A DNA stretch of 64,000 nt from Haliscomenobacter hydrossis DSM 1100 (lineage in GTDB: Bacteria > Bacteroidota > Bacteroidia > Chitinophagales > Saprospiraceae): positions 1,922,001 to 1,986,000 of the forward strand of contig NC_015510.1 of assembly GCF_000212735.1 (NCBI RefSeq), given 5' to 3'. A program made the position numbers and the translations under genes. How positions within the stretch are numbered: position 1 is the first letter of the stretch; each line of letters opens with the position of its first letter. The notes beneath the pieces are model-generated. The model searched no databases, was not told the origin of the DNA, and was given only the letters and a program-made list of their open reading frames with translations. Shown here piece after piece: positions 4,855-57,789 of the stretch.

Positions 4855-5016
4855 TGGACTTTATGAACAGAAGCTCACTTGGCCAGAACCGGGTCTTTCT
4901 GAGCTACTTTTCATTTATTTTTTCGTCCGTAGCGCTGCTACGCACTTAAAAATAAGCCTCAATTAGCTCAAAAATTCCTCTGTTCTGTCTCAAGCAGCTT
5001 CTGTTCATAAAGTCCA
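4855..5016. repeat. Inverted-repeat element Z1
   Basis: Perfect 21 bp arms at 4855-4875 and 4996-5016 (core ACTTTATGAACAGAAGC and its complement) enclose a 120 bp centre. The centre contains a smaller perfect hairpin, CGTAGC-GCT-GCTACG. The element lies 63 bp after the SusC-like stop codon and directly before the promoter of the FG-GAP lipoprotein. A 32 bp stretch of its left end (4857-4888) recurs at 50114-50145 on the opposite strand with about 3 mismatches, so this is a dispersed repeat and not only a terminator. Confidence 0.8.
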
Positions 5017-5017
5017 T

Positions 5018-5025
5018 TATCTTTG
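5018..5025 (+). promoter_or_regulatory. Putative -7 box (TATCTTTG)
   Basis: TATCTTTG matches the Bacteroidota -7 consensus TAnnTTTG. It sits 22 bp before the first ATG of the downstream lipoprotein gene. No convincing -33 box was found; the upstream sequence is the right arm of repeat Z1. Confidence 0.35.
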
Positions 5026-5047
5026 TAATTCAAAAGGATTGACGCAC

Positions 5048-8000
5048 ATGATGTTTTTGCTAAAAAAAGGCCAGCCGTGGGTGTATGGATGCCTCTGCTG
5101 TTTGCTGATTGCTTGTCAAAAGACCGATACAAAGACCCTGTTTACATCGATTCCGGTTAGTCAGTCCAAGGTCGACTTTTCCAATGTTTTAACCGAAACC
5201 GAAGACCTCAACATCATCGAATACCTTTACTACTACAACGGCGGAGGGGTAGCCGCAGGTGACGTCAACGGGGACGGCCTTCCCGATCTGTTTTTTACCG
5301 CCAATCAAGGAGCAAACAAACTCTATGTCAATCAAGGTGGACTGCGCTTCAAAGACGTCACTGCAGCTGCGGGCATTCAACAAAACGGCGGCTGGTCTAC
5401 CGGCGTAACCATGGCCGATGTCAACGGAGATGGAGCACTCGATATCTACGTGTGTCAGGTGGGACAATACAAAACACTACGAGGAAAAAACCAGCTGTAC
5501 ATCAACGACGGCAAAGGAAATTTCAGCGAACAAGCCGCAAAATACGGCCTCGATTTTGTGGGGTTTTCTACCCAGGCTGCTTTTTTTGACTACGACCGCG
5601 ATGGCAACCTGGATTGTTACCTGCTCAACCACTCCATCCACGATGCTGAAAATTACAGCCGTGCAGATATTCGCAATACCCGTGATGCCCTCTCGGGGGA
5701 CCGGCTGCTGCGCAACAACGGTGATATTTTTGAAGACGTCAGTGTCGCGGCGGGCATTTACGGCAGCAAAATTGGCTTTGGTTTGGGCATTGCCATTGGC
5801 GACCTCAACAACGACGGCTGGCCGGATATTTACGTGTCCAACGATTTTCACGAAAACGATTACCTGTATTACAACCGTGGCGATGGAACTTTTGTAGAGT
5901 CCATCACCACTTCGATGGGACATACCAGTACATTTTCAATGGGCAACGACCTGGCCGACATCAACAACGATGGTTGGCTCGATGTCGTAACCATGGACAT
6001 GAAGCCCAACGATGAGGTGGTCAATAAAAGTTCGGTGGGTGCCGACCCTTACAACATCTACCAGACCAAACTCAGTTATGGCTATCACTACCAGTACCCC
6101 CGCAACATGTTGCAACTCAACCGGGGTGTAGTCAGTGGGCAAACCAATCCCAGCTTTTCAGAAATTGGCCATTTGGCCGGGATCAATGCCAGCGACTGGA
6201 GCTGGGCACCCTTGCTCAGTGATTTTGACAACGATGGCTGGAAAGACCTTTTCATTGGCAACGGCATTTGGCGGAGGCCCAACGATCTGGATTACCTCAA
6301 GTTCATCTCCAACTCCACGGTTCAGCGCTCGGCATCCAATCAGGTCTTGACCGAAAAAATGCCCTTGGGCAAGGTGGCCAATTTTGCATACCGCAATCGG
6401 GGCGATTTGACTTTTGAAGATGTATCCGCTGCCTGGGGACTCAATTTTGAAGGCTGCTCCAATGGTGCTGCGTACGCCGACCTAGATCGCGATGGCGACC
6501 TCGATTTGATCCTGAACAACCTCAATGAACCCGCCAGTATTTTTGAAAACCAGGCACAAACCAAGCCGAACCAGCACTGGTTGCAAATCACCTTAAGCAC
6601 TCCGGGCAAAAACACTTTGGCCTTTGGTGCCAGGGTACGCATTGTAGTTGATGGCCGGGAGCAAATTCAGGAACTGTACAGCACTCGTGGTTTTCAGTCC
6701 GCGGTAGAACCTTTGTTGCACTTTGGCCTGGGCACCAGTAAAAAGGTCGAACTGCTGGAAATCCGTTGGCCTGATGGGAAAATTCAGCAACTTAAAAACC
6801 TGCCCGCCAATCAGCGTTTAACCATCAACTACCAGGATATTACTCCCAGCGAGAAACCATTACCTCAAGCGCTCATCGCCGACCATACTGACCAATCCGG
6901 TTTGAATTTTATCCATCGGGAAAACGAACACATCGACTTCGACCACGAACAACTCATGCCCCATATGCTTTCTACCCAGGGCCCTGCGCTGGCCGTAGGT
7001 GACGTGGACGGTAACGGACTGGAAGATGTGCTCATTGGTGGGCGGCAAGTGTTTTTGTACCGCCAGCTTGCCAAAGGGAAATTTACAGGGCAGGATTTGC
7101 TCCTTGATCCGCAAGGCGAAATGGTGGACGCGGCTTTTTTTGATGCTGATCTGGATGGTGATTTGGATGTCTATCTCGTCACAGGAGGCCATGAATACAC
7201 CGGAAAAAATCCGGCGCTACTGGATGTTTTGCTGATCAACGATGGCAAGGGCAAATTTACGCAGAATTCTCGTGCACTTCCGCAGGATTACGCCGATGGG
7301 TCTTGTGTGGTTCCCCTGGATTTCAACCAGGATGGTGCCTTGGACTTGTTTGTGGGCAGTCGGTCTATTTTTTCTTCTTACGGCCTGATTCCACCCAGTT
7401 ACCTCTATCAAAACGATGGCAAAGGACATTTTACCGAGGTGAGTGCCCAAGTTGCCCCCGAGCTGCAAAAGTTGGGCATGGTCAGCGCAGCCTGCACCAT
7501 TCAGCAAGCCGAGGATTTGCAATTGGTCGTCGTAGGCGAGTGGATGCCTGTGAGTATTTTTACCATCCAAAAAGGCAAACTCAACCTGAGCCAAATCCCC
7601 AACTCCGAGGGTTGGTGGAACACGGTGGCCATTGCTGATTACGACCAGGATGGCAAACCCGATTTGCTGCTCGGCAATCTGGGACTCAATTCCGAACTAA
7701 AAGCATCCCCGGAGCAGCCCGTTGAGTTGTTCGTGAAAGATTTTGACCAAAATTATCAAACCGATCCCATCCTCGCCTACTTCAAACAAGGGCGGCGCTA
7801 TACCTACATGAACAAAGACGAACTGACCAGCCAGTTGACCATCCTCAAAAAACAGTTCCTGGAATACCGCCCTTTTGCAGAGTGTGGGTTTGAACAAGTT
7901 TTTTCAGCCGAAATGTTGAAAGGGGCTGTTCAGCACCGTGCCATTACTTTTGCTTCTTCCTGGGGTAAATACCTCGGCAATGGCCAATATGCACTCACTG

Positions 8001-8299
8001 CCTTACCCATGGAAGCCCAATTTGCCCCCATCTTCAACTTTACCCAAGCCGACCTGGATGGCGATGGCCAAAAAGAAATCCTGAGTGTAGGCAATTGGCA
8101 TGGCATCCGGCCAAGTTTAGGCCGTTACGATGCCGATTACGGTTGTGTACTGACGCGCAAAGGGAAAAAATGGACGGCGATGAACCCGGCTCAAAGTGGA
8201 TTTTGGGTCAATGGACAAGGCCGAAAACTGGCGACTTTGGCTGATGGGTCGGTTTTGGTGGCGCGGAATAATTTGGGGCTGATGATTTGGGGGAAATAA
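5048..8299 (+). CDS. FG-GAP/VCBS repeat lipoprotein with ASPIC/UnbV domain
   Basis: 1083 aa from the ATG at 5048; an in-frame TTG at 5039 is less likely. A lipobox LIAC with Cys23 predicts a lipoprotein. About twelve calcium-binding-like loops follow the pattern D-x-[DN]-x-DG-x-x-D (GDVNGDGLPD, ADVNGDGALD, FDYDRDGNLD, GDLNNDGWPD and others), as in FG-GAP/VCBS propellers. An ASPIC/UnbV-type segment lies near the middle (GARVRIVVDG, FGLGTSKKVELLEIRWPDG). Such proteins are surface-exposed in Bacteroidota. Its position straight after a SusC-like gene with no SusD suggests that it acts as the extracellular binding partner; this is an inference. Confidence 0.9.
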   Translation: MMFLLKKGQPWVYGCLCCLLIACQKTDTKTLFTSIPVSQSKVDFSNVLTETEDLNIIEYLYYYNGGGVAAGDVNGDGLPDLFFTANQGANKLYVNQGGLRFKDVTAAAGIQQNGGWSTGVTMADVNGDGALDIYVCQVGQYKTLRGKNQLYINDGKGNFSEQAAKYGLDFVGFSTQAAFFDYDRDGNLDCYLLNHSIHDAENYSRADIRNTRDALSGDRLLRNNGDIFEDVSVAAGIYGSKIGFGLGIAIGDLNNDGWPDIYVSNDFHENDYLYYNRGDGTFVESITTSMGHTSTFSMGNDLADINNDGWLDVVTMDMKPNDEVVNKSSVGADPYNIYQTKLSYGYHYQYPRNMLQLNRGVVSGQTNPSFSEIGHLAGINASDWSWAPLLSDFDNDGWKDLFIGNGIWRRPNDLDYLKFISNSTVQRSASNQVLTEKMPLGKVANFAYRNRGDLTFEDVSAAWGLNFEGCSNGAAYADLDRDGDLDLILNNLNEPASIFENQAQTKPNQHWLQITLSTPGKNTLAFGARVRIVVDGREQIQELYSTRGFQSAVEPLLHFGLGTSKKVELLEIRWPDGKIQQLKNLPANQRLTINYQDITPSEKPLPQALIADHTDQSGLNFIHRENEHIDFDHEQLMPHMLSTQGPALAVGDVDGNGLEDVLIGGRQVFLYRQLAKGKFTGQDLLLDPQGEMVDAAFFDADLDGDLDVYLVTGGHEYTGKNPALLDVLLINDGKGKFTQNSRALPQDYADGSCVVPLDFNQDGALDLFVGSRSIFSSYGLIPPSYLYQNDGKGHFTEVSAQVAPELQKLGMVSAACTIQQAEDLQLVVVGEWMPVSIFTIQKGKLNLSQIPNSEGWWNTVAIADYDQDGKPDLLLGNLGLNSELKASPEQPVELFVKDFDQNYQTDPILAYFKQGRRYTYMNKDELTSQLTILKKQFLEYRPFAECGFEQVFSAEMLKGAVQHRAITFASSWGKYLGNGQYALTALPMEAQFAPIFNFTQADLDGDGQKEILSVGNWHGIRPSLGRYDADYGCVLTRKGKKWTAMNPAQSGFWVNGQGRKLATLADGSVLVARNNLGLMIWGK

Positions 8300-8304
8300 A
8301 ACTT

Positions 8305-8436
8305 AAAAGTTGAGGTGGTTGAGGAGTTGAGAAGGTTGAGGCTACCGCGAGCTATATGGCTCCGCAAGCGCCATTGTAAGGAGTGGCAGTTGTGTCGCTT
8401 GCGGTAGCCTCAACCTCCTCAACTTTCTCAACTTTT
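8305..8436. repeat. Quasi-palindromic iterated element A1 (GTTGAG units)
   Basis: The left arm has four GTTGAG-plus-2/3-nt units and then GCTACCGC (8341-8348). The right arm is the reverse complement with three units (GCGGTAGC at 8401-8408). Both outer ends are AAAAGTTGAG. It begins 6 bp after the lipoprotein stop codon. The same architecture recurs in A2 at 41215-41321. Confidence 0.85.
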
Positions 8437-8480
8437 ACAAATTAGCATATAGCCTCCTTTACATTCCCGCAAATTTGGCT

Positions 8481-8510
8481 TTTTACCCCCAAAAGGGTGA
8501 ATTTTACCCC
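8481..8510 (+). promoter_or_regulatory. Candidate operator: TTTTACCCC direct repeat / GGGTGA inverted half
   Basis: TTTTACCCC occurs at 8481-8489 and again at 8502-8510, a 21 bp start-to-start spacing (two helical turns). The second copy also forms a near-palindrome GGGTGAATTTTACCC at 8495-8509. It lies about 65 bp before the YCF48-like gene. A looser version (GGTGATATTTCTCCCC) lies at 13706-13721 before the sigma factor gene. The regulator is unknown. Confidence 0.3.
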
Positions 8511-8526
8511 AAAATAATAACCTAAT

Positions 8527-8560: not shown

Positions 8561-8574
8561 CAAATGCACCAACC

Positions 8575-9582: not shown

Positions 9583-9594
9583 TAGATAAAAACC

Positions 9595-17338: not shown

Positions 17339-17339
17339 A

Positions 17340-17420
17340 GGGTTCGTGGGTTCAGGAGTTCGGGGGTTCGAAGGTTGGGTTCCAAACCCACGAACTCCCG
17401 AACCTTCGAACCCACGAACC
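17340..17420. repeat. Quasi-palindromic iterated element B1 (GGTTCG units)
   Basis: GGTTCGTGGGTTC-type units on the left and their reverse complement (GAACCCACGAACC) on the right form an almost continuous hairpin with a centre near 17379. It begins one base after the TAA of the DUF6807-ThuA gene and ends 22 bp before the Gfo/Idh/MocA ATG. Four further B-family copies lie in the window. Confidence 0.85.
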
Positions 17421-17442
17421 GTCTTCCACAACCTATCCTGCT

Positions 17443-18846: not shown

Positions 18847-18847
18847 A

Positions 18848-18956
18848 GTTCGGGGGTTCGGAGTTCGAGGGTTCGTAGGTTCGGGGGTTGGGAGCATTGC
18901 TATTCAACCTCTCCTACGAACCCTCGAACTCCCGAACCTACGAACCCTCGAACCCT
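18848..18956. repeat. Quasi-palindromic iterated element B2 (GGTTCG units)
   Basis: The left arm is AGTTCGGGGGTTCGGAGTTC plus further units; the right arm is the reverse complement (CCTACGAACCCTCGAACTCC and more). The loop is short (GGGAGCATTGCTATT region). It starts one base after the TAA of the Gfo/Idh/MocA gene and lies 15 bp before the next ATG. Confidence 0.85.
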
Positions 18957-18971
18957 TAAACCTTAAGCTTT

Positions 18972-33516: not shown

Positions 33517-33709
33517 GTAAACATGAGTCATCCCGAATTTTTTAGTACAACAAAAGCGACACTTTTTTAGCACAAAGGACACAAAGGAAAGCACAAAGAA
33601 CACAAGGCAGCGCTTGTTTTTGTGCACTTTGTGCTTTCCTTTGTGTCCTTTGTGCTACTTTTTTGATCCGCTTTGGTCTTTTTAAACATTCGGGATGACT
33701 CATGTTTAC
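33517..33709. repeat. Quasi-palindromic iterated element C1 (CACAAAGGA units)
   Basis: Outer perfect arms of 22 bp lie at 33517-33538 and 33688-33709 (AAACATGAGTCATCCCGAAT and its complement). Inside are perfect 30 bp arms at 33569-33598 and 33627-33656 built from AGCACAAAGGA/CACAAAGGAA units. C2 at 54073-54171 repeats the inner pattern. It lies 78 bp after the DUF1835 stop codon. Confidence 0.88.
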
Positions 33710-38217: not shown

Positions 38218-38328
38218 GTAAAAGGGATTGAGTAGGGTAAAAATAGCGCAAATGTGTGGAAGGTTTTACACATAATTTTGCTCTTCCGGTCGAATGCTTA
38301 AAGGAGCGAGCGATTAAAAGTTAGACAC

Positions 38329-38462
38329 CCCGCCTGCGGCGGAAATAATAAAGATGATTTCACCACAGATGGCCACAGATTCACACAGATTTTATGGATA
38401 TGACCTAAAATCTGTGTGAATCTGTGGCCATCTGTGGTGAAAAATAATCCGCCGTAGGCGGG
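38329..38462. repeat. Quasi-palindromic iterated element D (CACAGATTC units)
   Basis: Perfect 37 bp arms at 38358-38394 and 38406-38442, built from CCACAGATGG/CCACAGATTC/ACACAGATT units, enclose an 11 nt loop. Outer arms CCCGCCTGCGGCGGA (38329-38343) and TCCGCCGTAGGCGGG (38448-38462) differ at one position. It lies 30 bp beyond the stop codon of the minus-strand receptor gene. This is the longest perfect stem in the window. Confidence 0.9.
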
Positions 38463-38491
38463 CGCTAAATAGTTACGTTTTGTTTATAAAT

Positions 38492-41203
38492 TCAAAACTT
38501 AACCACCACCCCCACCGAAGTCGTAAAATCCAGCGACTGCAATTCCAGCCCTTGCACCGTACTCTGCACTGCCGTTTGCCCATTGCGTGGATTGGAAGGC
38601 ACGTACGAATAAATATACTGGCGGTACTTGACGTTTTTGCGGTCCAGCAAGTTGAAAAAACTCAGGTTGGCCTGGATGTTGGTTTTGCCAATCTTGAACG
38701 CGTAAGTGGTGGCAAAATCCACCCGGTGGTAGTCTTCGAGATAAGAAATCCGGCTATCGGGACTGAGCAGTTCGCGGGAGCTCGGGTTGTCGGTCAATTT
38801 GGATAAGTCGGTAAACGGGCGTCCCGAGGCGTAGACGTAAGCCAATGAAAAGTCAAATTTTTTCCAGTTGTACTGGTTCACCCACTTCAACTGGTGGCGG
38901 CGGTCGTTGGGAGCCGGGAAAGCTTGTCCCCGCGAAATCTTCGGAAAACGCTGGGTACTTTTGCTCAAGGTGTAAGCAATCCAGGCTTCGTAGTGTTTGA
39001 AGGATTTTTTTAGCAACAAATCCAAACCTACCGTTTTTCCCGAACCCACAAACGGACGGAAGTTGATGGCGGTAGAATCATTGGGTAGAGAAACAAGCAC
39101 CTGGGCGTGTTCCACGATGTTGTTGGTATTTTTGAGGTAAAACTCGGCGTCAAACTCAAACCCCTGGCGGCGGTAGTTGCCCCCAATCATAAAATTGTGG
39201 GCATTCATCACCGGAAAGGAGCGGTCGTCTCTGGCCAATACCCAATACGGATAAGTGCGTCCGTAGCGGTCTTCGTGGTAAAACTGGTACAAAAACTGCT
39301 GGTAAATGCTCCAGGAAGCCTTCAGGCGGAAATCATCCGAAACTTTGGCAAACAGCCCGATGCGGGGAGAAAGATAATTGTTGGCGAGGTAGCGTGTACC
39401 CCGCAACCCAAAGCTGAAATTGATCGAAGAATCGAGCAAATCCGCCTGGTATTCGCCATACAGGGATTGTTGAGTGGCCTGGTTGTCCAGGTTCAGTTGG
39501 GTGCTTTTTTCATTCCTGATCAGCAGATTGGCCTGGTTGGCTACATTTTCCAACCCAAAAACCAGGCGTTGACTGGGGCTAAAGCGCCATTCGTTTTTCC
39601 AGTTGACATCCCAGCCTTCGATGTGGTTGGTGTGTTGGTTGGAAAAATCAAAAATGGTGCGCCGATTGGGCCCCACCTGCAACACCGCATTCTGGGCAAA
39701 ATCCCGATCCATCCCGTATTCCGAAAAAGCAACATTCAAGTGAGAACTGAAGCGGGCACTCCATTTTTGTTGCAATTGTAAGCCGAGTCCCTGGTTGTAC
39801 CAATCGGCACTTTCGTCGTACACCTCATTCACTATTTCGCGGCGGTTAAAAATCAGTTGGCCGCTTTGACGGTTGTACGCAAAGGCATAATTGTCTTCGC
39901 CACTGAAGTAACTCAAATCCGCACTAAACCGGGCCGAAGGCCGCCAACTGGCTTTGATGTTGGCATCAAAAAAGCGCAATTCCGGTTGTTGCGACACGAC
40001 TTCCTGCAATACCTTGGCTGCTCCGCCTCCGGGCCGAGTGGGGGGTATGCGGGCGGCATCTACTTCTGCCTGGAGCAGGTTGAACAGCTTGTTGTTGGCC
40101 AGATTCTGGTTGGTGATGCGCCCAGCCGCCATGACCCGGATTTGTTTCCCAATAGGCACATCCAACAAGGCGCTGCTGGTAATGAGGTTAAAATCGACAA
40201 TGGCCTGGGTTTTAGTCTCCCCTGTGCGTTGATGCGAACGGATGTCCACCACCGCTGAGGTGCGTCCGCCGTATTCCGCCGGAAAAGCGTTTTTGTACAC
40301 TTTGACTTCATCCACCATTTGGGGATTAACCAGACTAAAGATGCCAAAATAATGGGTGACGTTGTACAGGGTAATGCCATCGAGGATGATCAGGTTTTCG
40401 TCGCCGCTTCCCCCGCGGATGCTCAGGTCAGCAGACAGATCGTCGTGGGCGCTTACCCCGGGCAGGTATTGCAGGCTGCGGAACAAATCGGCACCGTTGA
40501 CAAAAGCCGGGAGCCTTTGTAAGCCTTGCCCTCGCACCACCACAGCGTCTTCCTGGAATTTATTGGACATCAGCGGCAATCGCGCCGTAACGGTCATGCC
40601 CTTGAGTTGTTCGATTTTAGGGGTAAGTCTTATTTTGAGGTCCAACGGATCAGCTCCCGGATCGATCCAGGTTTTGCGGGTTTGATAGCCGAGGTATTGG
40701 GCCGCTATTTCGGTGCTGGCGCTGCCGTCTTCAAGGGTCAATTCAAAATTACCCAGTTCATCACTGACCGCTCCTTCGCCCTGTCCACAGAGGATATGGC
40801 CAAAAGCGAGGGGAGTCAGGGTCCAGGCGTCGATCAATACCCCTTTGACTTTGCGTGGAACTTTTACTTTGACTTCGCTGATCGTAAAGTTTTCTTCACG
40901 CAGGGCCTTGCGCACCAAGACTTGTCCCGTTCCGGTGATTTGGTACTCCAAAAACAATCCGTCCAACAATTGAGACAAGGCCGTTGACAAGTCTTTGGCA
41001 TTGATTCTTTTCGAGATCCGAATATCGGCTACCGCTAAATTTTCGTAGGAAAACTTGATGTTGTACTTTTTGGCTAAAACTTCAAAGGCTTTTTCCAGAG
41101 AAGTGTTTTGGAATTTTTCATTGATGGCATAAGCCGACTGGCCCATCAGTTGACAGGAAAAAAAGGAGAACACAAGCCATACGACCAGGGGTTTTATGGA
41201 CAT
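38492..41203 (-). CDS. TonB-dependent receptor with STN signalling domain (FecA-like)
   Basis: 903 aa. Signal peptide (WLVFSFFSCQLMGQ), then an STN-type secretin/TonB short domain (about 28-100; AYAINEKFQNTSLEKAFEVL, ITGTGQVLVRKALR), a carboxypeptidase-like sandwich, a plug (VVRGQGLQRLPAFVNGADLF, SLQYLPGVSAHDDLSADLSI, RGGSGDENLIILDGITLYNV, YGGRTSAVVDIRSHQ) and a long barrel ending TTSVGVVVKF. The STN domain and the neighbouring FecR and ECF sigma genes on the same strand indicate a surface-signalling transporter. The ligand is unknown. The 3' end is duplicated at 34440-34556. Confidence 0.93.
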   Translation of the reverse strand: MSIKPLVVWLVFSFFSCQLMGQSAYAINEKFQNTSLEKAFEVLAKKYNIKFSYENLAVADIRISKRINAKDLSTALSQLLDGLFLEYQITGTGQVLVRKALREENFTISEVKVKVPRKVKGVLIDAWTLTPLAFGHILCGQGEGAVSDELGNFELTLEDGSASTEIAAQYLGYQTRKTWIDPGADPLDLKIRLTPKIEQLKGMTVTARLPLMSNKFQEDAVVVRGQGLQRLPAFVNGADLFRSLQYLPGVSAHDDLSADLSIRGGSGDENLIILDGITLYNVTHYFGIFSLVNPQMVDEVKVYKNAFPAEYGGRTSAVVDIRSHQRTGETKTQAIVDFNLITSSALLDVPIGKQIRVMAAGRITNQNLANNKLFNLLQAEVDAARIPPTRPGGGAAKVLQEVVSQQPELRFFDANIKASWRPSARFSADLSYFSGEDNYAFAYNRQSGQLIFNRREIVNEVYDESADWYNQGLGLQLQQKWSARFSSHLNVAFSEYGMDRDFAQNAVLQVGPNRRTIFDFSNQHTNHIEGWDVNWKNEWRFSPSQRLVFGLENVANQANLLIRNEKSTQLNLDNQATQQSLYGEYQADLLDSSINFSFGLRGTRYLANNYLSPRIGLFAKVSDDFRLKASWSIYQQFLYQFYHEDRYGRTYPYWVLARDDRSFPVMNAHNFMIGGNYRRQGFEFDAEFYLKNTNNIVEHAQVLVSLPNDSTAINFRPFVGSGKTVGLDLLLKKSFKHYEAWIAYTLSKSTQRFPKISRGQAFPAPNDRRHQLKWVNQYNWKKFDFSLAYVYASGRPFTDLSKLTDNPSSRELLSPDSRISYLEDYHRVDFATTYAFKIGKTNIQANLSFFNLLDRKNVKYRQYIYSYVPSNPRNGQTAVQSTVQGLELQSLDFTTSVGVVVKF

Positions 41204-41214
41204 GGTTGTTTAAA

Positions 41215-41321
41215 GTTGAGCGGTTGAGGAGTTGAGGAGGTTGAGAAGGTTTATGCTGCCGCAAGCGTCATTTGTCAAAATCCCTTGCGGCAGCATAAAC
41301 CTCCTCAACCTCCTCAACTCA
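41215..41321. repeat. Quasi-palindromic iterated element A2 (GTTGAG units)
   Basis: The left arm has four GTTGAG units and then GGTTTATGCTGCCGCAAG (41248-41265); the right arm is its complement (41284-41301) followed by two units. Its right end overlaps the FecR stop codon (TGA-GTTGAGG on the minus strand). The same unit as A1 at 8305-8436 but with a different centre. Confidence 0.85.
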
Positions 41322-42329
41322 TTTTACAAGAATCAGGTCTCCACGTGTACTCGTTTCCAGCCTTAGTGGCCAGCACACGTTAAACAATGCCGTATCGACG
41401 TTGCTTCCTTCAAAGTAGGTCGTCACCTTGCGCCGGGCAATTTCGGGTGTGGTTTGAATGCGCACTTCGAATTGCCGTTGTATTTCTGCAAAAACTTCTT
41501 CCAGTGGGGTCTGGGTAAAATAAAACTTACCGTCACGCCAGGCTCCCGAAGGTTGATTGTCGATGGTATAAGGAGTCACCAGGTCACCATTTTCGTTGGT
41601 TTGGGTGATCAAACCCGGCGTTAATATTTGTGCACCTTTCGGATTGGACACTCGAACCTTACCCGTTACACAGGATACCGCAAAAGAGTTTCCTCGGGCG
41701 CGTACGTTGAAGCTGGTACCCAAGACCTCCACTTGCCCTTGTACGGCTTTTACCACAAAGCGGCTGCCTTTGGTTACCTGAAAAAAAGCCTCGCCTTCCA
41801 GTTCAACCTGGCGGGTAAAGCGCCAACGCCAGGGGTGATAGCTGATGCTGCTCGCCGCGTTGATGGCTACCGATGAACCATCGGGCAATTGATGCGTCAG
41901 TTTTTGGCCAATTCCGGCACTGACCCGCTCGGTGGGATTGTACAACAAGGCGACCAACAACAAGGTCACACAAGCCGCAGCGGCGTAGCTCAACCAGCGG
42001 CGCAAAGGGCGTATTCTGGCTTCCCGCAGAGACGTAGGCGCAACGGTGGGGGTCGTTTGCACAAGCGGTTCTTTTGCTATACTGGTGGCCAGATCGATCC
42101 GGTTCCACAATGCATTCAGCACGGCTTCACTCGGCTCTTCTTCACGTACCGTGAGGGCTTGGGCCAGTTTGCGGCCTTCGGCTACTTCGCTGGCCTTTTC
42201 GGGGTGTTGATCGAGCCAGTTTTGCCAAAACACGGCGGCTTCCTCATCACCGGCCCTGACCCAGCGGATGAAGGATGGTTCCTGGGCAAAATCCAGGGCA
42301 GAATAAGATGTAAAAGTTTCTGGTTTCAC
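41319..42329 (-). CDS. FecR-family anti-sigma/signal-transfer protein
   Basis: 336 aa. A cytoplasmic N-terminus (WLDQHPEKASEVAEGRKLAQ), one membrane helix (about 112-132; WLSYAAAACVTLLLVALLYN), a FecR domain (HQLPDGSSVAINAASSISY, RQVELEGEAFFQVTKGSRF, VVKAVQGQVEVLGTSFNV) and a C-terminal DUF4974-like segment (PLEEVFAEIQRQFEVRIQTT). FecR relays outer-membrane receptor occupancy to an ECF sigma factor. Both partners lie in this locus: the receptor downstream and the sigma factor upstream. Confidence 0.92.
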   Translation of the reverse strand: MKPETFTSYSALDFAQEPSFIRWVRAGDEEAAVFWQNWLDQHPEKASEVAEGRKLAQALTVREEEPSEAVLNALWNRIDLATSIAKEPLVQTTPTVAPTSLREARIRPLRRWLSYAAAACVTLLLVALLYNPTERVSAGIGQKLTHQLPDGSSVAINAASSISYHPWRWRFTRQVELEGEAFFQVTKGSRFVVKAVQGQVEVLGTSFNVRARGNSFAVSCVTGKVRVSNPKGAQILTPGLITQTNENGDLVTPYTIDNQPSGAWRDGKFYFTQTPLEEVFAEIQRQFEVRIQTTPEIARRKVTTYFEGSNVDTALFNVCWPLRLETSTRGDLILVK

Positions 42330-42351
42330 ATATTCAGGGTTTGGGGACTCT

Positions 42352-42436
42352 GAGGGTTCGGGGGTTCGGAGGTTCGGGGGTTCGGGGGTTAACCCAAAAC
42401 CTTCGAACTCCCGAACCCTCGAACCCTCGAACCCTT
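42352..42436. repeat. Quasi-palindromic iterated element B3 (GGTTCG units)
   Basis: GGGTTCGGGGGTTCGGAGGT on the left and CCCGAACCCTCGAACCCTCG on the right meet at a central GGGTTAACCC palindrome (about 42387-42396). On the minus strand the first unit begins directly after the metallopeptidase TAA (TAAGGGTTCG), and the other side lies 23 bp before the FecR start. Confidence 0.85.
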
Positions 42437-42884
42437 ATTTAAACAACTCATCTAAATAAGCACTTCTCGTCTGGTTCGTGTAACTCATTTTGCAAAGACC
42501 GAGTCCACTTTGCATCATACTGACGCAAGATCCATCGGTACGGGCTTCATCCAGGTGCGCACGATTGAGGGTACAATGCCCCAGTTCGTGAAAAATCACC
42601 ATTTCGCGTTGCATCGCACTTGCTGTTCTCCAAAAATCATCATCCACCAGTACGCGTTTTTGTCCGTTGGAGATGGTTTGGCATTTGGCGGCCACATTGG
42701 CCTCGTCCAGCGCAGTAATCATGCCACTGTATTTGCTCATGTCCAGGCTTAGTCCACGTTGTTGTGCTTCCATTGCAAAACTGTTAAACAGGGGTTGCAA
42801 TTCCGTATCCACGTTGACCGATTCTTCTTTTGCGCAAGAAAAAGCGGTCAGTAAAACCAAAGACAGGATCATGAGCTTGTGCAT
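42435..42884 (-). CDS. Putative metallopeptidase lipoprotein
   Basis: 149 aa. Lipobox AFSC with Cys17. A zinc-protease motif HELGH at 99-103 (VIFHELGHCTLNRAH) has a further His at 110, and GSCVSMMQS downstream could be a Met-turn. The end (RSAYLDELF) resembles small Bacteroidota metallopeptidase-like proteins whose substrates are unknown. It sits between the FecR gene and the ECF sigma factor gene, so it may take part in periplasmic signal processing; this is an inference. Confidence 0.82.
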   Translation of the reverse strand: MHKLMILSLVLLTAFSCAKEESVNVDTELQPLFNSFAMEAQQRGLSLDMSKYSGMITALDEANVAAKCQTISNGQKRVLVDDDFWRTASAMQREMVIFHELGHCTLNRAHLDEARTDGSCVSMMQSGLGLCKMSYTNQTRSAYLDELFK

Positions 42885-42930
42885 TCGTTCGGTATTTTAC
42901 TAGAATAAGCCTGTGTATTTGGTTTTGTAC

Positions 42931-43509
42931 TCATAGCAATCGAAAAAAATTGCACAACCACACAATAAATAGCACCAGCAGGATTTGCCGCAGGGCTTCG
43001 AGCGCCCGATGTGACAAATTACGTGCCGATTGATAGTTCAGTTCCATGATTTCGCCAATCTGGGTATAGTCCATATCGGCAAAGTATTTCAGGTAAAGCA
43101 CCTCGCGTTGGCGTTCGCTCAATGCGGCCATGGCCACCTTGAGTTTGGCATCGCGTTCGGCATCCAATTCTCCCTGAATGAGGAGTTGGTCGATGCCGAA
43201 GTCGGCCTGAAAGTGGCGCTCTTCGGGTTCTTCACTGGCGATTTTTTTCACCTGTCGATCCAGGGTCTTGACAATTTTGCGGCGGAGGGAAACGAACAGG
43301 TATTTCCGAATGGAGTCGGTGGCAGAAATCCTTTGGCGGGCTTCCCAAAGCTCAATAAACAGGTCTTGAATACAATCTTCTACCAACTGGGCATCGGGCA
43401 TAAACTTGCGGCCATATTTGAACAAAACGGCAGCATGGTCGCGGTAAATCTGTTCCAGTGCTCCCTTTTCACCATCCCTTAATGCTTGCCAACGCTCTAA
43501 ATCAGACAT
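42931..43509 (-). CDS. ECF sigma factor (FecI-like) with hydrophobic C-terminal tail
   Basis: 192 aa. Region 2 is RDHAAVLFKYGRKFMPDAQL, VEDCIQDLFIELWEARQRIS and IRKYLFVSLRRKIVKTLDRQ; region 4 is LKVAMAALSERQREVLYLKY, FADMDYTQIGEIMELNYQSA, RNLSHRALEALRQ. The last 17 residues (ILLVLFIVWLCNFFRLL) form a strongly hydrophobic tail, which could anchor the factor to the membrane or its FecR partner. Together with FecR and the STN receptor it forms a complete surface-signalling set. It is divergent from the four-repeat lipoprotein gene. Confidence 0.92.
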   Translation of the reverse strand: MSDLERWQALRDGEKGALEQIYRDHAAVLFKYGRKFMPDAQLVEDCIQDLFIELWEARQRISATDSIRKYLFVSLRRKIVKTLDRQVKKIASEEPEERHFQADFGIDQLLIQGELDAERDAKLKVAMAALSERQREVLYLKYFADMDYTQIGEIMELNYQSARNLSHRALEALRQILLVLFIVWLCNFFRLL

Positions 43510-44769: not shown

Positions 44770-44894
44770 TCCCAAAAAACAAATTGACACATATTGAGCT
44801 TGAAATATGGGCCACCGGAGTGATTTCGGTGGCTCTTTTTGTTTTGGGGAGCATGCTAACCACTTGCTTATTTACTCACGATTACGCGGTTAGG

Positions 44895-44916
44895 AAGCAG
44901 CTGCGCTGCTTTTTTT
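44895..44916 (+). terminator. Intrinsic terminator
   Basis: AAGCAGC-TGC-GCTGCTT followed by a run of T residues (44910-44916). It lies 126 bp after the four-repeat lipoprotein gene and just before element E. It has the canonical stem-loop plus U-tract form. Confidence 0.75.
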
Positions 44917-44919
44917 ATA

Positions 44920-45047
44920 AACACGACGACGCGACGGAACGACGACACGACGATCTTCGCGCTTTGCGCTCAGTGTATACGACGCTTTGCGTCGGATTGA
45001 GGCGGTAGCCATTCCGTCGTGTCGTCGTTCCGTCGCGCCGTCGTGTT
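44920..45047. repeat. Quasi-palindromic iterated element E (ACGACG units)
   Basis: 33 bp arms at 44920-44952 and 45015-45047 match with one difference (AACACGACGACGCGACGGAA type). The 62 bp centre holds smaller hairpins (GCGCTTTGCGC, GACGCTTTGCGTC). It follows the terminator of the lipoprotein gene and precedes the McrB gene by about 165 bp. Confidence 0.88.
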
Positions 45048-45213
45048 AAAGGATTTGGCGAAGCCGAATTCAATCCATTCGTTGTGTTTACGCATCTGTT
45101 AAGTCTTTTGATATAGGGCTGAGTAATGTGAGTTACTAAAAAATTTAGCCAACTAGGCAGCTATTGTACTTTGACCATTTTTCCCTATCTTCCCTACCTC
45201 ATTTACACCACGC

Positions 45214-46941
45214 ATGCAGACCCAATTCGAATACATCCAGCAACTCGCCGAGCAATACCATACTTTCGCTGAAGATTCCGCTCAATTGTATCCCTATTTG
45301 GAGCAAGTGGACAGAGCCATGCTCAAAAATTTTGAGGAAAAATATGCCGATCCTGCGCGGGGTTTTCAGCCCATCAACCTGCTGCGTTTGGAATGCATCC
45401 AGCATTTGTTGAACGGCAAAACCCTGAACGACGAGGTGGTCGAAGCCATTAAACAGCGGATTCGACAAAAAAACGAATCCTATTTTGGGCATTTAGACCC
45501 CAAAATGCTCCAGGCCTTGCAGGAGTATCCGCTGGGCAAACGCGATTGGTTTGCCAATTGGCGCAAAACGTGGCACATTTTTTTTCCTTTACTTTACCCC
45601 GACAAGATCCGCCAAACTACCCGAAGCACCCTCGCTGAAATCGCGACTCAATTGTTGAAAGAGCTGGACTTGCCCGATTATACCTTTCATCTGGCCGATT
45701 TCAGTGGACCCCTACATTTGGGCAGCGATACAGTCTCTTTGTCCTTGTATCCTGCGGATCGAGGGGGGCCTCAACATACCTATCAACTTTTTGTAAAAAT
45801 AAGTGCGGTTTCGGGGGCAGGAATTGCTACGGGTTCTAAACTCAGCAAAACCGCGAGCAGCGAAGATCAACTCCTCAGCATTGGCACTTACGAAGAGGCC
45901 CTGCGGGTTTTGGAAAAAATGAAACCCAAGGTGCTGGCGTTGAATGAGAAGTTGCCCGCATACGACCGCATTTTGCCCAGTCCACCTGACTACAAAAACC
46001 CCATCGCTTACGGCCAGCCCGAAGCAAAAAGGAACCTGGCGGTGCAAGAGCCACCGGTAGCACTATTTATCCCACGCTACCGCTACGAGGATGACCCCGA
46101 ACGTCCTTTTGTGGCGACGGAGACCTTCGTCCGCCTGGTGCATTTGTTGAAGCGCAAACGCAACGTGATCCTGCAAGGACCTCCCGGCGTAGGCAAAACC
46201 TTTTTGGCCAGCAAACTGGCTTATGGCCTCATGGGCTACAAACACCAGGAACAAATCCAGCGCCTGCAATTTCATCAATCGTACAGTTATGAGGATTTTG
46301 TGCAAGGTTTACGCCCAGCGCCAAGTGGCGGGTTTGAACTGCGCAACGGGGTGTTTTACCAATACTGCCAACTCGCCCACGCCCATCCCGACCAGGCTTA
46401 TTTTTTAATCATTGATGAAATCAATCGGGGCAACCTCAGCAAAATCTTCGGGGAGTTGTTGCAACTGATTGAAGCCGACAAACGCGCAGAGAACTACGCA
46501 GTACGCCTCACTTACGGCTCCGAAAATGATCCTGCTTTTTTTGTACCGCCCAACCTGTACCTGATCGGCACCATGAATACCGCCGACCGATCTTTGGCCA
46601 TCATCGATTATGCCCTGCGGCGGCGTTTTGCTTTTATTGAGGTAGAGCCTTGTTTTGATGAAACATTCACGGATTATTTGCAGCAGCAGGGTCTTACCAG
46701 CGGCTTGGTTCAACACATTGCCCATCAGGTGCAAAAACTGAATGAAGAAATCACCCGCGATCCCAATCTGGGCAAGGATTTCCGCTTGGGGCACAGCTAT
46801 TTTTGCACCTACATTCCCGCCATGGACGAAGGCCAATGGTATCAGGATGTATTGCGCTACGAAATCCGCCCCATGCTGGAGGAAATGTGGTTTGACCAAC
46901 CAGAACGGGTAGAAAAAGCTTTCCAAAACCTGGAAAAGTAG
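45214..46941 (+). CDS. mcrB: McrB-like AAA+ restriction GTPase/ATPase
   Basis: 575 aa. The C-terminal half is an McrB-type AAA+ motor: Walker A GPPGVGKT at about 322-329, FHQSYSYEDFVQGLRP, Walker B YFLIIDEINRGNLSKIFGEL near 396, and the McrB hallmark GTMNTADRSL near 452, then ALRRRFAFIEVEP. The N-terminal ~290 residues form an unrecognised domain (HTYQLFVKISAVSGAGIATG) that should read modified DNA. With McrC it forms a type IV system that cleaves methylated or otherwise modified DNA. McrC starts 5 bp later. Confidence 0.93.
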   Translation: MQTQFEYIQQLAEQYHTFAEDSAQLYPYLEQVDRAMLKNFEEKYADPARGFQPINLLRLECIQHLLNGKTLNDEVVEAIKQRIRQKNESYFGHLDPKMLQALQEYPLGKRDWFANWRKTWHIFFPLLYPDKIRQTTRSTLAEIATQLLKELDLPDYTFHLADFSGPLHLGSDTVSLSLYPADRGGPQHTYQLFVKISAVSGAGIATGSKLSKTASSEDQLLSIGTYEEALRVLEKMKPKVLALNEKLPAYDRILPSPPDYKNPIAYGQPEAKRNLAVQEPPVALFIPRYRYEDDPERPFVATETFVRLVHLLKRKRNVILQGPPGVGKTFLASKLAYGLMGYKHQEQIQRLQFHQSYSYEDFVQGLRPAPSGGFELRNGVFYQYCQLAHAHPDQAYFLIIDEINRGNLSKIFGELLQLIEADKRAENYAVRLTYGSENDPAFFVPPNLYLIGTMNTADRSLAIIDYALRRRFAFIEVEPCFDETFTDYLQQQGLTSGLVQHIAHQVQKLNEEITRDPNLGKDFRLGHSYFCTYIPAMDEGQWYQDVLRYEIRPMLEEMWFDQPERVEKAFQNLEK

Positions 46942-46946
46942 CGGCC

Positions 46947-47981
46947 ATGATCCCGATTCAAAACCTGTACTACTTGTTGTGTTATGCCTGGAACACCCTG
47001 GAGGAAGCCGAACGGGTGGCCATCGATACGGAACAGTACCAAAAAATGCCCGATCTGTTTGCCAAAGTGCTGATCAACGGCATGTGGATCTTGCTCAAAC
47101 GGGGCTTGGATCAGGATTACCAGTTGCAAGAACATGAAGTAGCGGGCGTCAAAGGAAAATTGAACCTGAGTGCCACTTTAAAAACCAATTGCCTGTGGTT
47201 GCAAAAAACCACTTGCGCCTACGATGAATACTCGGCGGATGTGCCCAGTAATCAACTCCTGGCGGCCTGCCTGCGCCAACTCGTAACGATGCCTGAATTG
47301 GACAAAAACCTCAAAGCGGACTTGCAAAAAATCCAGCGCATGCTCCCGCCTTTGAGCAGTATTGCCTTTCACCCACGTTCTTTTGAACGGGTAAAACTGC
47401 GCCCTGACCAACGGCTTTATGTTTTTTTGCTGCACGTTTGTCGCATCATTGCCGAAAACTTGTTGCCAACCGAAAACCCCGGTCGCTTTCAATTCGTGGA
47501 TTTTCGTCGCGACGAACGCAAAATGAACCGCGTGTTTGAGTCTTTTTTGTTTCGTTTTTTCCAAAAAGAACAAAGCCAGTACTGGGCACGCCGTGAGCAA
47601 ATTCGCTGGCAGTGGCAAGCGCCTCAAGATCCTCAACACCTGAATTATTTGCCCTTGATGGAAACCGACCTCACGTTGGAAAGTCCCACCCGCAAAATCA
47701 TCATCGACGCCAAATATTACCGTTATCCGCTGGGTGGCAGCCGCTTTGAAGCCGACAAACTGGTCTCAGCCAACTTATACCAGTTGTACAGCTACCTGCT
47801 GAATCAGGAACACCGCGATGAACGTTCGAAAGTAGCGACGGGAATGTTGCTTTACCCACAAACGGAGGGGCAACTGCGTTTGGATTACCGCTTTGGGGAG
47901 CACGATATTTTGGTGCGCAGCGTCAATTTGAATGCCCATTGGCGGGAGATTCATGGAGAGCTGCTGGGATTGTTAAGTTGA
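46947..47981 (+). CDS. mcrC: McrC-like nuclease subunit
   Basis: 344 aa. Conserved McrC features: QNLYYLLCYAWNTLEE, EHEVAGVKGKLNLSATLKTN, CAYDEYSADVPSNQLLAACL. The PD-(D/E)XK active site is seen as METDLTLES with Asp241 and IIIDAKYYR with Asp254 and Lys256. McrC stimulates McrB and carries the DNA-cutting centre. The TGA overlaps the start of hairpin element B4. No other defence gene is adjacent. Confidence 0.93.
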   Translation: MIPIQNLYYLLCYAWNTLEEAERVAIDTEQYQKMPDLFAKVLINGMWILLKRGLDQDYQLQEHEVAGVKGKLNLSATLKTNCLWLQKTTCAYDEYSADVPSNQLLAACLRQLVTMPELDKNLKADLQKIQRMLPPLSSIAFHPRSFERVKLRPDQRLYVFLLHVCRIIAENLLPTENPGRFQFVDFRRDERKMNRVFESFLFRFFQKEQSQYWARREQIRWQWQAPQDPQHLNYLPLMETDLTLESPTRKIIIDAKYYRYPLGGSRFEADKLVSANLYQLYSYLLNQEHRDERSKVATGMLLYPQTEGQLRLDYRFGEHDILVRSVNLNAHWREIHGELLGLLS

Positions 47982-48124
47982 AGAGTTCGGGGGTTCGTAG
48001 TTCGGGGGTTCGTAGTTCGGGGGTTCGGGGGTTTCCGCTCCCACATGTAGGACACCATTGTTGAAAGAATGGAAAACCATTAACCCCCGAACTACGAACC
48101 CCCGAACCCCCGAACTCCTCAACT
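47976..48124. repeat. Quasi-palindromic iterated element B4 (GGTTCG units)
   Basis: The left arm is AGTTGAAGAGTTCGGGGG with several TTCGTAG/TTCGGGGG units; the right arm is the complement (ACCCCCGAACTACGAACCCC, then CGAACTCCTCAACT). The loop is about 48 nt. The left arm overlaps the McrC stop codon. A separate 10 bp hairpin follows at 48129-48166. Confidence 0.85.
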
Positions 48125-54072: not shown

Positions 54073-54171
54073 TTTTTTTAACACAAGGGGCACAAAGAAA
54101 AGCACAAGGGACACAAAGGAGCACACATGTTGTGCACTTTGTATTTCCTTTGTGTTCTTTGTGTTAAAAAA
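54073..54171. repeat. Quasi-palindromic iterated element C2 (CACAAAGGA units)
   Basis: TTTTTTAACACAAGGGGCAC and further CACAAAGGA-like units pair with TGTGCACTTTGTATTTCCTT and its continuation to GTGTTAAAAAA. The loop is about 5 nt. The left flank (CCAAAGCGACATTTTTTT) resembles that of C1 (AAAAGCGACACTTTTTT). It lies 47 bp after the pyruvate carboxylase stop codon and 21 bp before the first GNAT gene. Confidence 0.88.
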
Positions 54172-54191
54172 TTTGGGTAAATATTGACCGT

Positions 54192-54701: not shown

Positions 54702-54705
54702 AAAT

Positions 54706-55233: not shown

Positions 55234-55536
55234 CTCACTTTGCGCATTTTGTTAAACCGCAACTTTTTAACCGCAGAGTGACGGAGGGCACGCAGAGTTG
55301 CGCGGAGTTTTTTTAGTATTTGGGAGTTTGCCACCTACGGTGGCTGGAGTTGGTGCTCTAGGAAAATCTTACTTAAGTCAAGCCAAGAACAATACCGGAA
55401 CTTGATAAAGGATACCAAACCAATCTTCAGCAATGGCGACCTCCGAGGCCTCTCCGCACCGCAGGTGCTCCTAACAAACTCCGCGAAACTCCGTGTCTAC
55501 TCATCTACTCTGCGGTTAATAAATGCGTAAAGTGAG
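55234..55536. repeat. Long inverted-repeat element F1
   Basis: Outer arms CTCACTTTGCGCATTT (55234 on) and AAATGCGTAAAGTGAG (ending 55536) enclose further complementary blocks (AACCGCAGAGT and ACTCTGCGGTT) and an inner hairpin GCCACCTACGGTGGC. It begins immediately after the GNAT TAA and ends 11 bp before the hydrolase stop on the other strand. It is homologous to F2 (57444-57789); shared blocks include GGAGTTTGCCACCT and GCACCGCAGGTGC. Confidence 0.88.
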
Positions 55537-55547
55537 CAGGTAAGTCT

Positions 55548-56378: not shown

Positions 56379-56391
56379 GGATAAAGGTTTA

Positions 56392-56500
56392 ACGGGTTCG
56401 GGGGTTCGGGGGTTCGAGGGTTCGGGGGTTCGGGAGTTTAATGGTCAACTCTTCAACACTAAACATTTCAACTCTTCAACTAACCCTGCTATCTTCACGC
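56392..56500. repeat. Half element B5 (GGTTCG units, one arm only)
   Basis: Six GGTTCG/GGGTTC units run from about 56394 to 56437 without a complementary arm. Downstream, TCAACTCTTCAAC occurs twice (near 56444 and 56468). Unlike the other copies it lies between divergent genes (hydrolase and fmt), upstream of both start codons. Confidence 0.7.
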
Positions 56501-56517
56501 CAAATTAGCAATTAAGC

Positions 56518-57435
56518 ATGAAATTAAAAATCATATTTATGGGAACGCCGGATTTTGCCGTTCCCGCTTTGGATATTCTGGTGCAGCATGGATACGAGAT
56601 CGTTGGTGTAGTAACCGTTGCAGATAAAATGGGAGGCCGGGGCATGAAACAAGTGCTGGAATCTCCGGTAAAAAAATACGCCGTGGCCCAGGGCATTCCG
56701 GTATTGCAACCCGAAAAATTACGCAATCCTGAATTTTTGGCTCAATTGCGCGATTTAGGGGCCAATTTGCAAATTGTAGTGGCTTTTCGCATGTTGCCAG
56801 AGGTGGTATGGTCGATGCCCGGTTTGGGTACGTTTAACCTGCACGGTTCCCTATTGCCGCGTTACCGGGGAGCCGCGCCCATCAATTGGGCGGTGATCAA
56901 CGGCGATACCGAAACGGGCGTGACCACTTTTTTTCTCCAACACGAAATTGATACGGGCAGCATCATTTTCCAGGACAAAATGACCATCGGCGAAGATGAA
57001 ACCGCGGGCGATGTACACGACCGCATGATGCAACTGGGGGCAGGCACGGTGCTCAAAACGGTGCAAGCCATTGAAGCTGGAACAGCACCCAGCGTTCCGC
57101 AAGACGATGCCCAGGCCAGCCATGCCCCTAAAATTTTTCACGAAACCTGTCAAATTAACTTTGAGCAAAGCACCGCACAAGTGCACAATTTTGTGCGTGG
57201 CCTCAGTCCTTTTCCGGCCGCCTGGACAACGCTGGATGGACAAGAATTGAAAGTACTCCGCAGCGCCAAAGAAACGGCGGCGCACGATCATCCCCCAGGA
57301 AATGTATTTTCCGATGGCCGGAGCTACCTCAAATTCAGTACCCGCGATGGATTTGTGCAAGTGCTTGAATTGCAATTGCAGGGCCGCAAACGCATGTTGG
57401 TGAAAGATTTTTTGAATGGGTATAAGGTGCAGTGA
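56518..57435 (+). CDS. fmt: Methionyl-tRNA formyltransferase
   Basis: 305 aa. The formyltransferase core is clear: IIFMGTPDFAVPALDILVQH, FRMLPEVVWSMPGLGTFNLH, GSLLPRYRGAAPINWAVING with the SLLPxYRG motif, ETGVTTFFLQHEIDTGSI, and a C-terminal domain (VRGLSPFPAAWTTLDGQELK). The enzyme formylates Met-tRNAi with 10-formyl-THF for translation initiation. It stands alone between elements B5 and F2. Confidence 0.96.
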   Translation: MKLKIIFMGTPDFAVPALDILVQHGYEIVGVVTVADKMGGRGMKQVLESPVKKYAVAQGIPVLQPEKLRNPEFLAQLRDLGANLQIVVAFRMLPEVVWSMPGLGTFNLHGSLLPRYRGAAPINWAVINGDTETGVTTFFLQHEIDTGSIIFQDKMTIGEDETAGDVHDRMMQLGAGTVLKTVQAIEAGTAPSVPQDDAQASHAPKIFHETCQINFEQSTAQVHNFVRGLSPFPAAWTTLDGQELKVLRSAKETAAHDHPPGNVFSDGRSYLKFSTRDGFVQVLELQLQGRKRMLVKDFLNGYKVQ

Positions 57436-57443
57436 TTTATTTT

Positions 57444-57789
57444 ACTCACATTACACATTTTTTTACCGCAGAGTAAAGGAGTACACGCGGAGTTCCTCGG
57501 AGTTTTAGTTTTAAGGAGTTTGCCACCTGCGGTGGCTGGAGTTAGGGCTCCAGGAACTTCTTGCTAAAAATCAAGCCAAGGATAATGGGATTTGCTAAAG
57601 GGTAAACCAAACTTCAGCAATAGCTGCCTCCGCGGCCTCTGTGCACCGCAGGTGCCCTTAAAAAACTCTGCGGAACTCCGCGTGTACTCCTTTACTCTGC
57701 GGTAAAAAAACAAATCGCTGTGTGCATCGCTAATACTCACTTTTACTTACATCAGATGAGGACTTAGAATAAGACTGTATAATGTGAGT
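57444..57789. repeat. Long inverted-repeat element F2
   Basis: Outer arms ACTCACATTACACA (57444 on) and TGTATAATGTGAGT (to 57789), then near-perfect arms of about 40 bp starting TTTTTTTACCGCAGAGTAAA and ending in the complement TTTACTCTGCGGTAAAAAAA. An inner hairpin GCCACCTGCGGTGGC is complemented again by GCACCGCAGGTGC. It starts 8 bp after the fmt stop codon and leads toward the ABC transporter gene. It is a second copy of F1. Confidence 0.9.

Follow-up and report, generated by a model that had tools for sequence, protein, structure and literature searches.

Inverted Repeats in the Window

The window analyzed here, a stretch of 64,000 nucleotides from Haliscomenobacter hydrossis DSM 1100, occupies positions 1922001–1986000 of the chromosome (8,371,686 bases; the genome comprises 8,771,651 bases in 4 contigs) and carries long inverted repeats (IRs) in its gene gaps, most of them palindromes built from iterated short units. 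A first-pass annotation had listed thirteen such elements just downstream of genes; as it gave no coordinates for single elements, they were matched by the position of IRs. At a fixed threshold (arms of at least 24 nt, at least 78% complementary, score of at least 14, span of no more than 330), eleven IRs were recovered at the matched places, at positions 8325, 17340, 18863, 33568, 38358, 41229, 42353, 44920, 47985, 54074, and 57458, a density (11 in 64 kb) typical of the genome; shuffled sequence gave none. Two further IRs, Z1 (4855–5016, 83% complementary) and F1 (55264–55522, 76%), fall below this threshold. The shared design proposed for the elements, iterated units followed by their reverse complement, holds for most members but not for Z1. 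The elements are listed below, with a strand where one was assigned and with the predicted RNA fold in kcal/mol and its z score.

8308–8436 (+): A1, GTTGAG-unit palindrome with GCTACCGCGAGC apical stem, beginning 9 nt past the stop at 8299; −75.3, z −9.2
17339–17421 (+): B1, GTTCG-unit palindrome directly adjoining the stop at 17338; −57.1, z −7.9
18847–18964 (+): B2, GTTCG-unit palindrome directly adjoining the stop at 18846; −73.5, z −8.4
33517–33709: CACAAAG dispersed element of about 190 bp with inverted AAACATGAGTCATCCCGAA ends, unit-built stem at 33568–33657; −61.6, z −11.9
38311–38476: CACAGAT dispersed element, stem at 38358–38442 with full (100%) complementarity of the arms and CCGCCTGCGGCGG-type palindromes in inverted orientation on either side; −69.1, z −18.0
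41214–41321 (−): A2, GTTGAG-unit palindrome at the stop of the FecR-like gene 41319–42329 (−); −74.6, z −13.8
42352–42436 (−): B3, GTTCG-unit palindrome at the stop of gene 42435–42884 (−); −57.5, z −6.3
44868–45108: D, ACGACG dispersed element, stem at 44920–45047, 150 nt past the stop at 44769; −83.7, z −9.5
47984–48117: B4, GTTCG-unit palindrome, the McrC-like gene stop at 47981 lying within the GTTGAAGA word that opens the array; −82.7, z −9.4
54074–54171: E, CACAAAG-unit palindrome 48 nt past the pyruvate carboxylase stop at 54025; −42.2, z −7.6
55264–55522: F1, CGCAGAG element between convergent genes, arms 76% complementary
57440–57719: F2, CGCAGAG dispersed element, stem at 57458–57710, 22 nt past the stop at 57435; F1 and copies at L014 and L016 are related to it
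4855–5016: Z1, nested IR without iterated units; fold of 4855–4995 −39.9, z −4.0
56394–56482: GTTCG array and, to its right, a GTTGAAGAG-type part, both within a divergent gap and pairing poorly with each other; −21.5, z −1.3, 15 of 200 shuffles folding as well

Ten of these elements have predicted folds between −42 and −84 kcal/mol (z −6 to −18), and the folds of Z1, which was cut short, and of the array at 56394 are weaker. No Rfam family was found in the window at gathering scores.

Among the neighboring genes, an McrBC restriction pair is located at 45214–47981 (+), its McrC gene ending where a GTTCG array begins. Genes for a sigma-70-like factor, a small protein with a weak phage metallopeptidase match, a FecR-like regulator and a TonB-dependent receptor form a same-strand run at 38492–43509 (−), with palindromes in two of its gaps.

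Abundance and Placement at Gene Ends

The survey was extended to a pooled sample of 864 kb, comprising the window and 40 stretches of 20 kb, all chromosomal: the first sample (464 kb) consists of the window and 20 evenly spaced stretches, and the replicate of 20 fresh ones. Genes were called by our own simple codon-usage method. The pooled sample contains 143 long IRs, of which 83 lie in tandem gaps, 34 in convergent and 15 in divergent gaps, nine at stretch edges and two in coding sequence (first sample: 84, divided 49, 22, 7, 5, and 1; replicate: 59, divided 34, 12, 8, 4, and 1). Outside the window the density is 16.5 per 100 kb (132 IRs in 800 kb), which extrapolates to about 1,450 IRs of all families per genome, and in this sample about a fifth of the gene gaps carry one (132 IRs to 576 gaps). 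Five dinucleotide-preserving shuffles of the first-sample gaps of at least 50 bp produced no IR in any shuffle, as against 78 intergenic IRs in the real sequence.

The proximity to stop rather than start codons, on which the first-pass annotation had staked its proposal, was borne out. In tandem gaps 68 IRs are nearer to the upstream stop and 13 to the next start, with two ties (p = 4e-10); the first sample (40, 8, and one tie) and the replicate (28, 5, and one tie) agree. Per kb of gap, IRs number 2.46 between convergent genes and 0.52 between divergent ones in the pooled data.

The 141 non-coding IRs were divided by a regular expression, written after the first sample, into 75 of group 1 (a few of which are other repeats), 35 of group 2, and 31 that are non-iterated by our own measure, the CGCAGAG elements being among the last. 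Group 1 units are, for example, GTTCGGGG, GTTGAGGA, AGTGAAA, and ATGACGA; group 2 units include CACAAAGG, CACAGATT, and ACGACG. Group 1 palindromes begin within 10 nt of a stop in 48 of 61 cases (median +1), and those of group 2 in six of 32 (median 46.5). A strict division of the groups by distance was abandoned: all 15 group 2 members of the first sample lie at least 20 nt away, but six of 17 in the replicate lie within 0–6 nt, although the medians still differ (0 versus 21, p = 0.0004).

Precise targeting of the stop codon was likewise considered and rejected. Under uniform placement 13.8 of the 42 tandem group 1 elements are expected within 7 nt of the stop, and 34 are observed; the expectation rises to 25.3 or 30.2 when elements are excluded from the final 30 or 60 nt upstream of the next start, so that closure of this zone accounts for much of the effect. 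Much of the stop-side placement thus results from avoidance of the region before the next start. Nor is the stop codon generally a part of the palindrome, since it is mirrored at the far end in just five of 32 cases. At only 10 of 73 gene ends does the stop trinucleotide reappear with the period of the units, and in some genes, judged by eye, the reading frame enters the array and ends on a TGA belonging to it. Arm pairing of 87 and 92% in two GTTCG elements of divergent gaps shows that pairing also occurs away from gene ends; in the array at 56394, likewise in a divergent gap, it has been lost.

Structure of the Elements

Single arms are 24–72 nt long and consist mostly of iterated units. Purines predominate in the 5′ arm of 65 of 75 group 1, 22 of 35 group 2, and 13 of 31 other IRs. 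As had been noticed at the outset, the two arms may differ in unit number: in B4 the left arm (47985–48033) holds 6.4 copies and the right arm (48082–48115) 4.4. The initial description of the element sequences as unrelated was too strong, because many elements match one another over most of their length and several units fit a single octamer form, GTT-S-N-N-R-R. The construction is modular: one apical stem (GGTCRCYGAGC...) occurs within GTTCG, GTTGAG, GTTGAA, and ATGACG arms, and its orientation to the gene is mixed (A core: nine same, six opposite).

An arm pairs better with its own partner than with the corresponding arm of another family member in eight of eight families, the advantage ranging from 0.015 to 0.32. 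Template switching has been reported to create, maintain and mend hairpins (PMC8794818). At the end of the pyruvate carboxylase gene the left arm in the congener G004 resembles, by eye, the reverse complement of the right arm in the congener G001, which is expected if both descend from one perfect palindrome.

Dispersed Copies

Copies at other loci, matching at least 60% of the element length within the pooled sample, were found for 59 of 75 group 1, 33 of 35 group 2, and 23 of 31 non-iterated IRs; the queries included 60-bp flanks, and much of the matching in group 1 comes from shared unit arrays. The CACAAAG element 33517–33709 has a copy at locus L178 that is 99% identical and has different flanks. 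In the three families examined, homology between copies extends past the arms into loops and flanks. These families consist of dispersed copies, contrary to the view that common descent alone does not explain the elements. The word GGTTCGGGGGTTCG has 461 exact matches in the genome, often several per element.

Terminal inverted repeats, as in MITEs, are present in the CACAAAG family, one of the few whose ends were examined. A 15-base piece of its end, searched as an exact 15-mer, has 38 matches, among which nine opposed pairs start 150–245 bases apart. At L178 (16811–17000) a CACAAAG element appears, by eye, to be nested in an older palindrome (AAGTGTTCATTTT ... AAAATGAACACTT). The genome also contains seven matches to RAYT-like transposases (PF01797, Y1_Tnp; L021–L027), one with an internal stop, whose flanks carry short palindromes of their own.

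Occurrence in Related Genomes

Four congeners (G001–G004) were available as drafts of 80 to 1,020 contigs, in which palindromes may be lost or collapsed. Judged by the nucleotide identity of one gene, G002 and G004 are closest (93.8%), G001 shares 89% with those two, and H. hydrossis shares 81–82% with the three. The same gene end sometimes carries different palindromes in different species. At the end corresponding to 17338, GTTCG units in H. hydrossis correspond to GTTGAA with a REP-like apex (REP, repetitive extragenic palindromic) in G002 and to GTTGAG in G004; at 18846, GTTCG corresponds to GTTCC in G004 and ACGACG in G001 and G002, with none found in G003. The pyruvate carboxylase gene is followed by CACAAAG units in H. 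hydrossis, GTTGAG units in G001 and G004, and a sub-threshold TTGAAAGG-type hairpin in G003. A GTTCC palindrome of G004 (L029, 11744), which does pair, lies roughly as far from the carboxylase gene as the array at 56394 does, in unaligned sequence.

Empty sites were also found. The cleanest has a 2-base gap in G001 and G002, and at the same junction 100 bases with a GTTCC palindrome in G004 and 108 bases with a GTTCG palindrome in H. hydrossis. Between one convergent gene pair H. hydrossis has 104 bases of AGTGAAA palindrome and G003 a 2-base gap.

Copy numbers follow the lineage. GTTCG arrays (GTTCGNRRGTTCGNRRGTT) number 972 in H. hydrossis, 3 in G004, and 0 in G001, G002, and G003, and GTTCC arrays (GTTCCNRRGTTCCNRRGTT) number 1 in H. 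hydrossis, 528 in G004 (reversed control 8), 36 in G002, 5 in G001, and 0 in G003; the pattern matches overlap within these counts, so a single element can yield several. In the same IR scan the density per 100 kb is 9.2 in G002, 8.3 in G004, and 1.0 in G003 (3 in 300 kb), values that are perhaps too low because drafts break at repeats. G003 has 73 octamer-array matches.

The general octamer pattern is found in 17 of 120 genomes of the family (15 of 112 genera), and several of these, G003 among them, spell it differently; the matches in other genera are pattern counts alone, taken without regard to palindromy or position, and the reversed control, which itself yields numerous matches in some genomes, is not a clean null. 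Outside the family, 17 loci with GC content above 52%, 16 of them from Hymenobacter, contain 37 IRs in 251 kb, 14 iterated, and their tandem IRs lie nearer the stop in 20 cases and nearer the start in two. The other 59 loci, some from the same family as H. hydrossis, have seven IRs in 772 kb, with five of five tandem ones nearer the stop. The Hymenobacter loci L079, L080, L082, L084, L085, L088, L093, and L094 carry long IRs, some iterated and some of TCATGCTGAGC type. Across 395 genomes of the phylum, a CACCAC-type pattern matched in two only, one of them H. hydrossis.

Relation to Transcription Termination

A terminator role, one of the functions suggested in the first-pass annotation, found no clear support. 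A U-tract (at least six T in 10 nt) follows the stem at 17 of 151 oriented gene ends and precedes it at 17 of 151; an earlier count that was not oriented by gene gave 14 of 61 on the right and 11 of 61 on the left. With a looser terminator scan, canonical terminators occur in 33 of 247 tandem gaps without an element and 12 of 83 with one, and in 12 of 33 and nine of 34 convergent gaps, respectively (shuffled controls: 6 of 330 and 3 of 67), so that no difference is seen. A stricter scan of the first sample points the other way, with terminators at nine of 93 sites with an element versus two of 158 without. In Escherichia coli, IRs near gene ends are reported mostly as parts of intrinsic terminators (PMC6060812), which favors the terminator idea. 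Two elements lie inside the sigma–FecR–TonB receptor run; should the run be transcribed as a single unit, it would be broken up by strong termination at these points. We do not think that the elements are the main transcription terminators of H. hydrossis.

Origin of the Elements

The most probable explanation, to which we assign a probability of about 0.62, is that the elements are a large population of small, non-autonomous, REP-like palindromic repeats with iterated-unit stems, which spread within the genome and turn over fast at gene ends. It is carried by the dispersed copies, the avoidance of start regions, the lineage differences in copy number, the modular build, and the occurrence of both empty and filled sites. 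The stems would be arrays of 7–10 nt units, some enclosing a second, shorter REP-like apical stem. Such repeats would be mobilized by an activity acting in trans and would settle after a stop codon and short of the next gene's start region. Every lineage would have had its own bursts with its own unit spelling, which would explain why one gene end carries different palindromes in different species. Complementarity of the arms may be kept by hairpin-templated (template-switch) repair or replication that copies one arm onto the other. Read-through transcripts are predicted to gain a very stable 3′ hairpin, which could slow 3′-to-5′ decay or uncouple neighboring genes.

Several results weigh against this explanation. 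Among 63 reciprocal ortholog pairs, the repeat is present in both species in 10, in H. hydrossis only in 18, in the congener only in seven, and in neither in 28, and occupancy is weakly shared across all congeners (10 of 28 versus 7 of 35). Eight GTTCC gene ends of G004, six of them chosen for GTTCC, have an ortholog in H. hydrossis, with GTTCG there in six and another IR in two; six such ends have an ortholog in G002, with GTTCC in one, another repeat in two and none in three. Site sharing is therefore greater between H. hydrossis and G004 than between G004 and the more closely related G002, a pattern not expected from simple random insertion. At loci not chosen for GTTCC, group 1 occupancy is associated, in small numbers, between H. 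hydrossis and G004 (3 of 4 versus 1 of 17, p = 0.012) and between G001 and G002 (2 of 2 versus 0 of 9, p = 0.018), with no association in the other four species pairs. The own-partner advantage of the arms is barely present in the CACAAAG and AGTGAAA families, and IR detection itself favors matched arms. No target duplication is visible by eye at the clearest empty/filled junction, the one site inspected, and no opposed pair of CACAAAG ends found with the exact 15-mer is spaced for a transposase gene. A mobilizing enzyme was not found: the five unit arrays searched for, within 600 bp on each side, are present at none of the seven RAYT flanks.

Alternatively, the sites may be old and only their spelling overwritten, a species-wide process having imposed one unit word (GTTCG in H. 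hydrossis, GTTCC in G004) on many pre-existing palindromes at particular gene ends, with arms kept complementary and hairpins rewritten in concert; we regard this as unlikely. About as unlikely, in our judgment, is that the palindromes are selected RNA elements of 3′ ends, acting as U-tract-free terminators or decay barriers, in which the hairpin and not its sequence is kept. Stop-side and convergent placement, the high predicted hairpin stability, the loss of pairing in the divergent gap at 56394, the strict terminator scan and the E. coli report (PMC6060812) all agree with selection, as does one gene end, at a locus chosen for GTTCC in G004, where each of four species has a palindrome, in three spellings. 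Such selection fits poorly with equal U-tract frequencies on both sides of the stem, the absence of any difference in the looser scan, and the placement of two elements inside one receptor run. Neither does it predict the empty sites in relatives, the scarcity of long IRs in G003 in spite of its octamer arrays, or the 15 of 143 IRs in divergent gaps, including the two well-paired GTTCG elements.

Growth in place appears improbable: here slippage would multiply a word after the stop and template switching, for which a hairpin-forming role is reported (PMC8794818), would mirror it, without movement between loci. Frames that run into an array and end on its TGA suggest such growth, and arm-specific matching would follow from it, but hundreds of array matches in one species-specific spelling and long homologous copies that include loops and flanks in three families would not, and the stop trinucleotide is seldom repeated at the unit period or mirrored at the far end. 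Still less probable is that the elements are ordinary REPINs moved by resident RAYT transposases. The genome does hold RAYT-like genes, some apical stems are REP-like, and seven of 31 non-iterated IRs match RAYT flanks; any flank match is, however, limited to 4 of 75 group 1 and 1 of 35 group 2 members, and a GTAG/CGTC tag at the stem foot is not clearly enriched (8 of 75 in group 1, control 7; 5 of 35 in group 2, control 2), to which the absence of the five unit arrays from the RAYT flanks is added.

Comparison With Known Repeats

We file the class as a REP-like variant and not as REPs or REPINs proper. REPs are described as intergenic and as lying mostly between convergent genes or genes of one direction, near the 3′ end of the gene upstream, and GTAG REPs often provide a TAG stop (PMC3733652). 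The H. hydrossis elements resemble REPs and BIMEs in their many dispersed copies (more than 100 per genome), in the type of gap occupied and in nearness to the upstream 3′ end, and some of their arrays supply a TGA as GTAG REPs supply a TAG. They differ in that REPs are 20–40 bp long with a tag (same source), whereas the H. hydrossis arms alone measure 24–72 nt, tags are not clearly enriched and the spelling is species-specific. With REPIN/RAYT systems, described in PMC3116915 and PMC2817692, they share paired inverted hairpin elements that disperse within a genome, and short palindromes in inverted orientation stand on either side of the CACAGAT element; the difference lies in the unit arrays tested, which are missing from the seven RAYT flanks.

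The TAACTGA heptamer repeats of Beggiatoaceae, Cyanobacteria, and some Bacteroidetes are similar as short iterated words of gaps, with stops in all frames and a patchy distribution across species, but they are described as direct repeats, which in the Maribeggiatoa genome mostly stand immediately before start codons (PMC4679880). Intrinsic terminators likewise place a stable hairpin after the stop; the H. hydrossis elements differ from them in longer arms and in the lack of a U-tract excess. Template-switch hairpins (PMC8794818) would explain arm-to-arm copying but represent a mutational mechanism and not an element family. No description of iterated-unit palindromes with species spellings was recognized in the Creative Commons-licensed literature of PubMed Central, which leaves out most subscription papers and was judged for the most part from listings.

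If confirmed, these elements would add to the REP type a form in which short words make up an evolvable stem array, spelled in a way characteristic of the species and different in near relatives. They would offer a natural system for studying how dispersed repeats homogenize, how the two arms of a hairpin evolve jointly, and whether bacteria benefit from stable 3′-end hairpins, present in about a fifth of the gene gaps, or merely tolerate them. With one junction filled in some related genomes and empty in others, the effect on transcripts can be tested directly.

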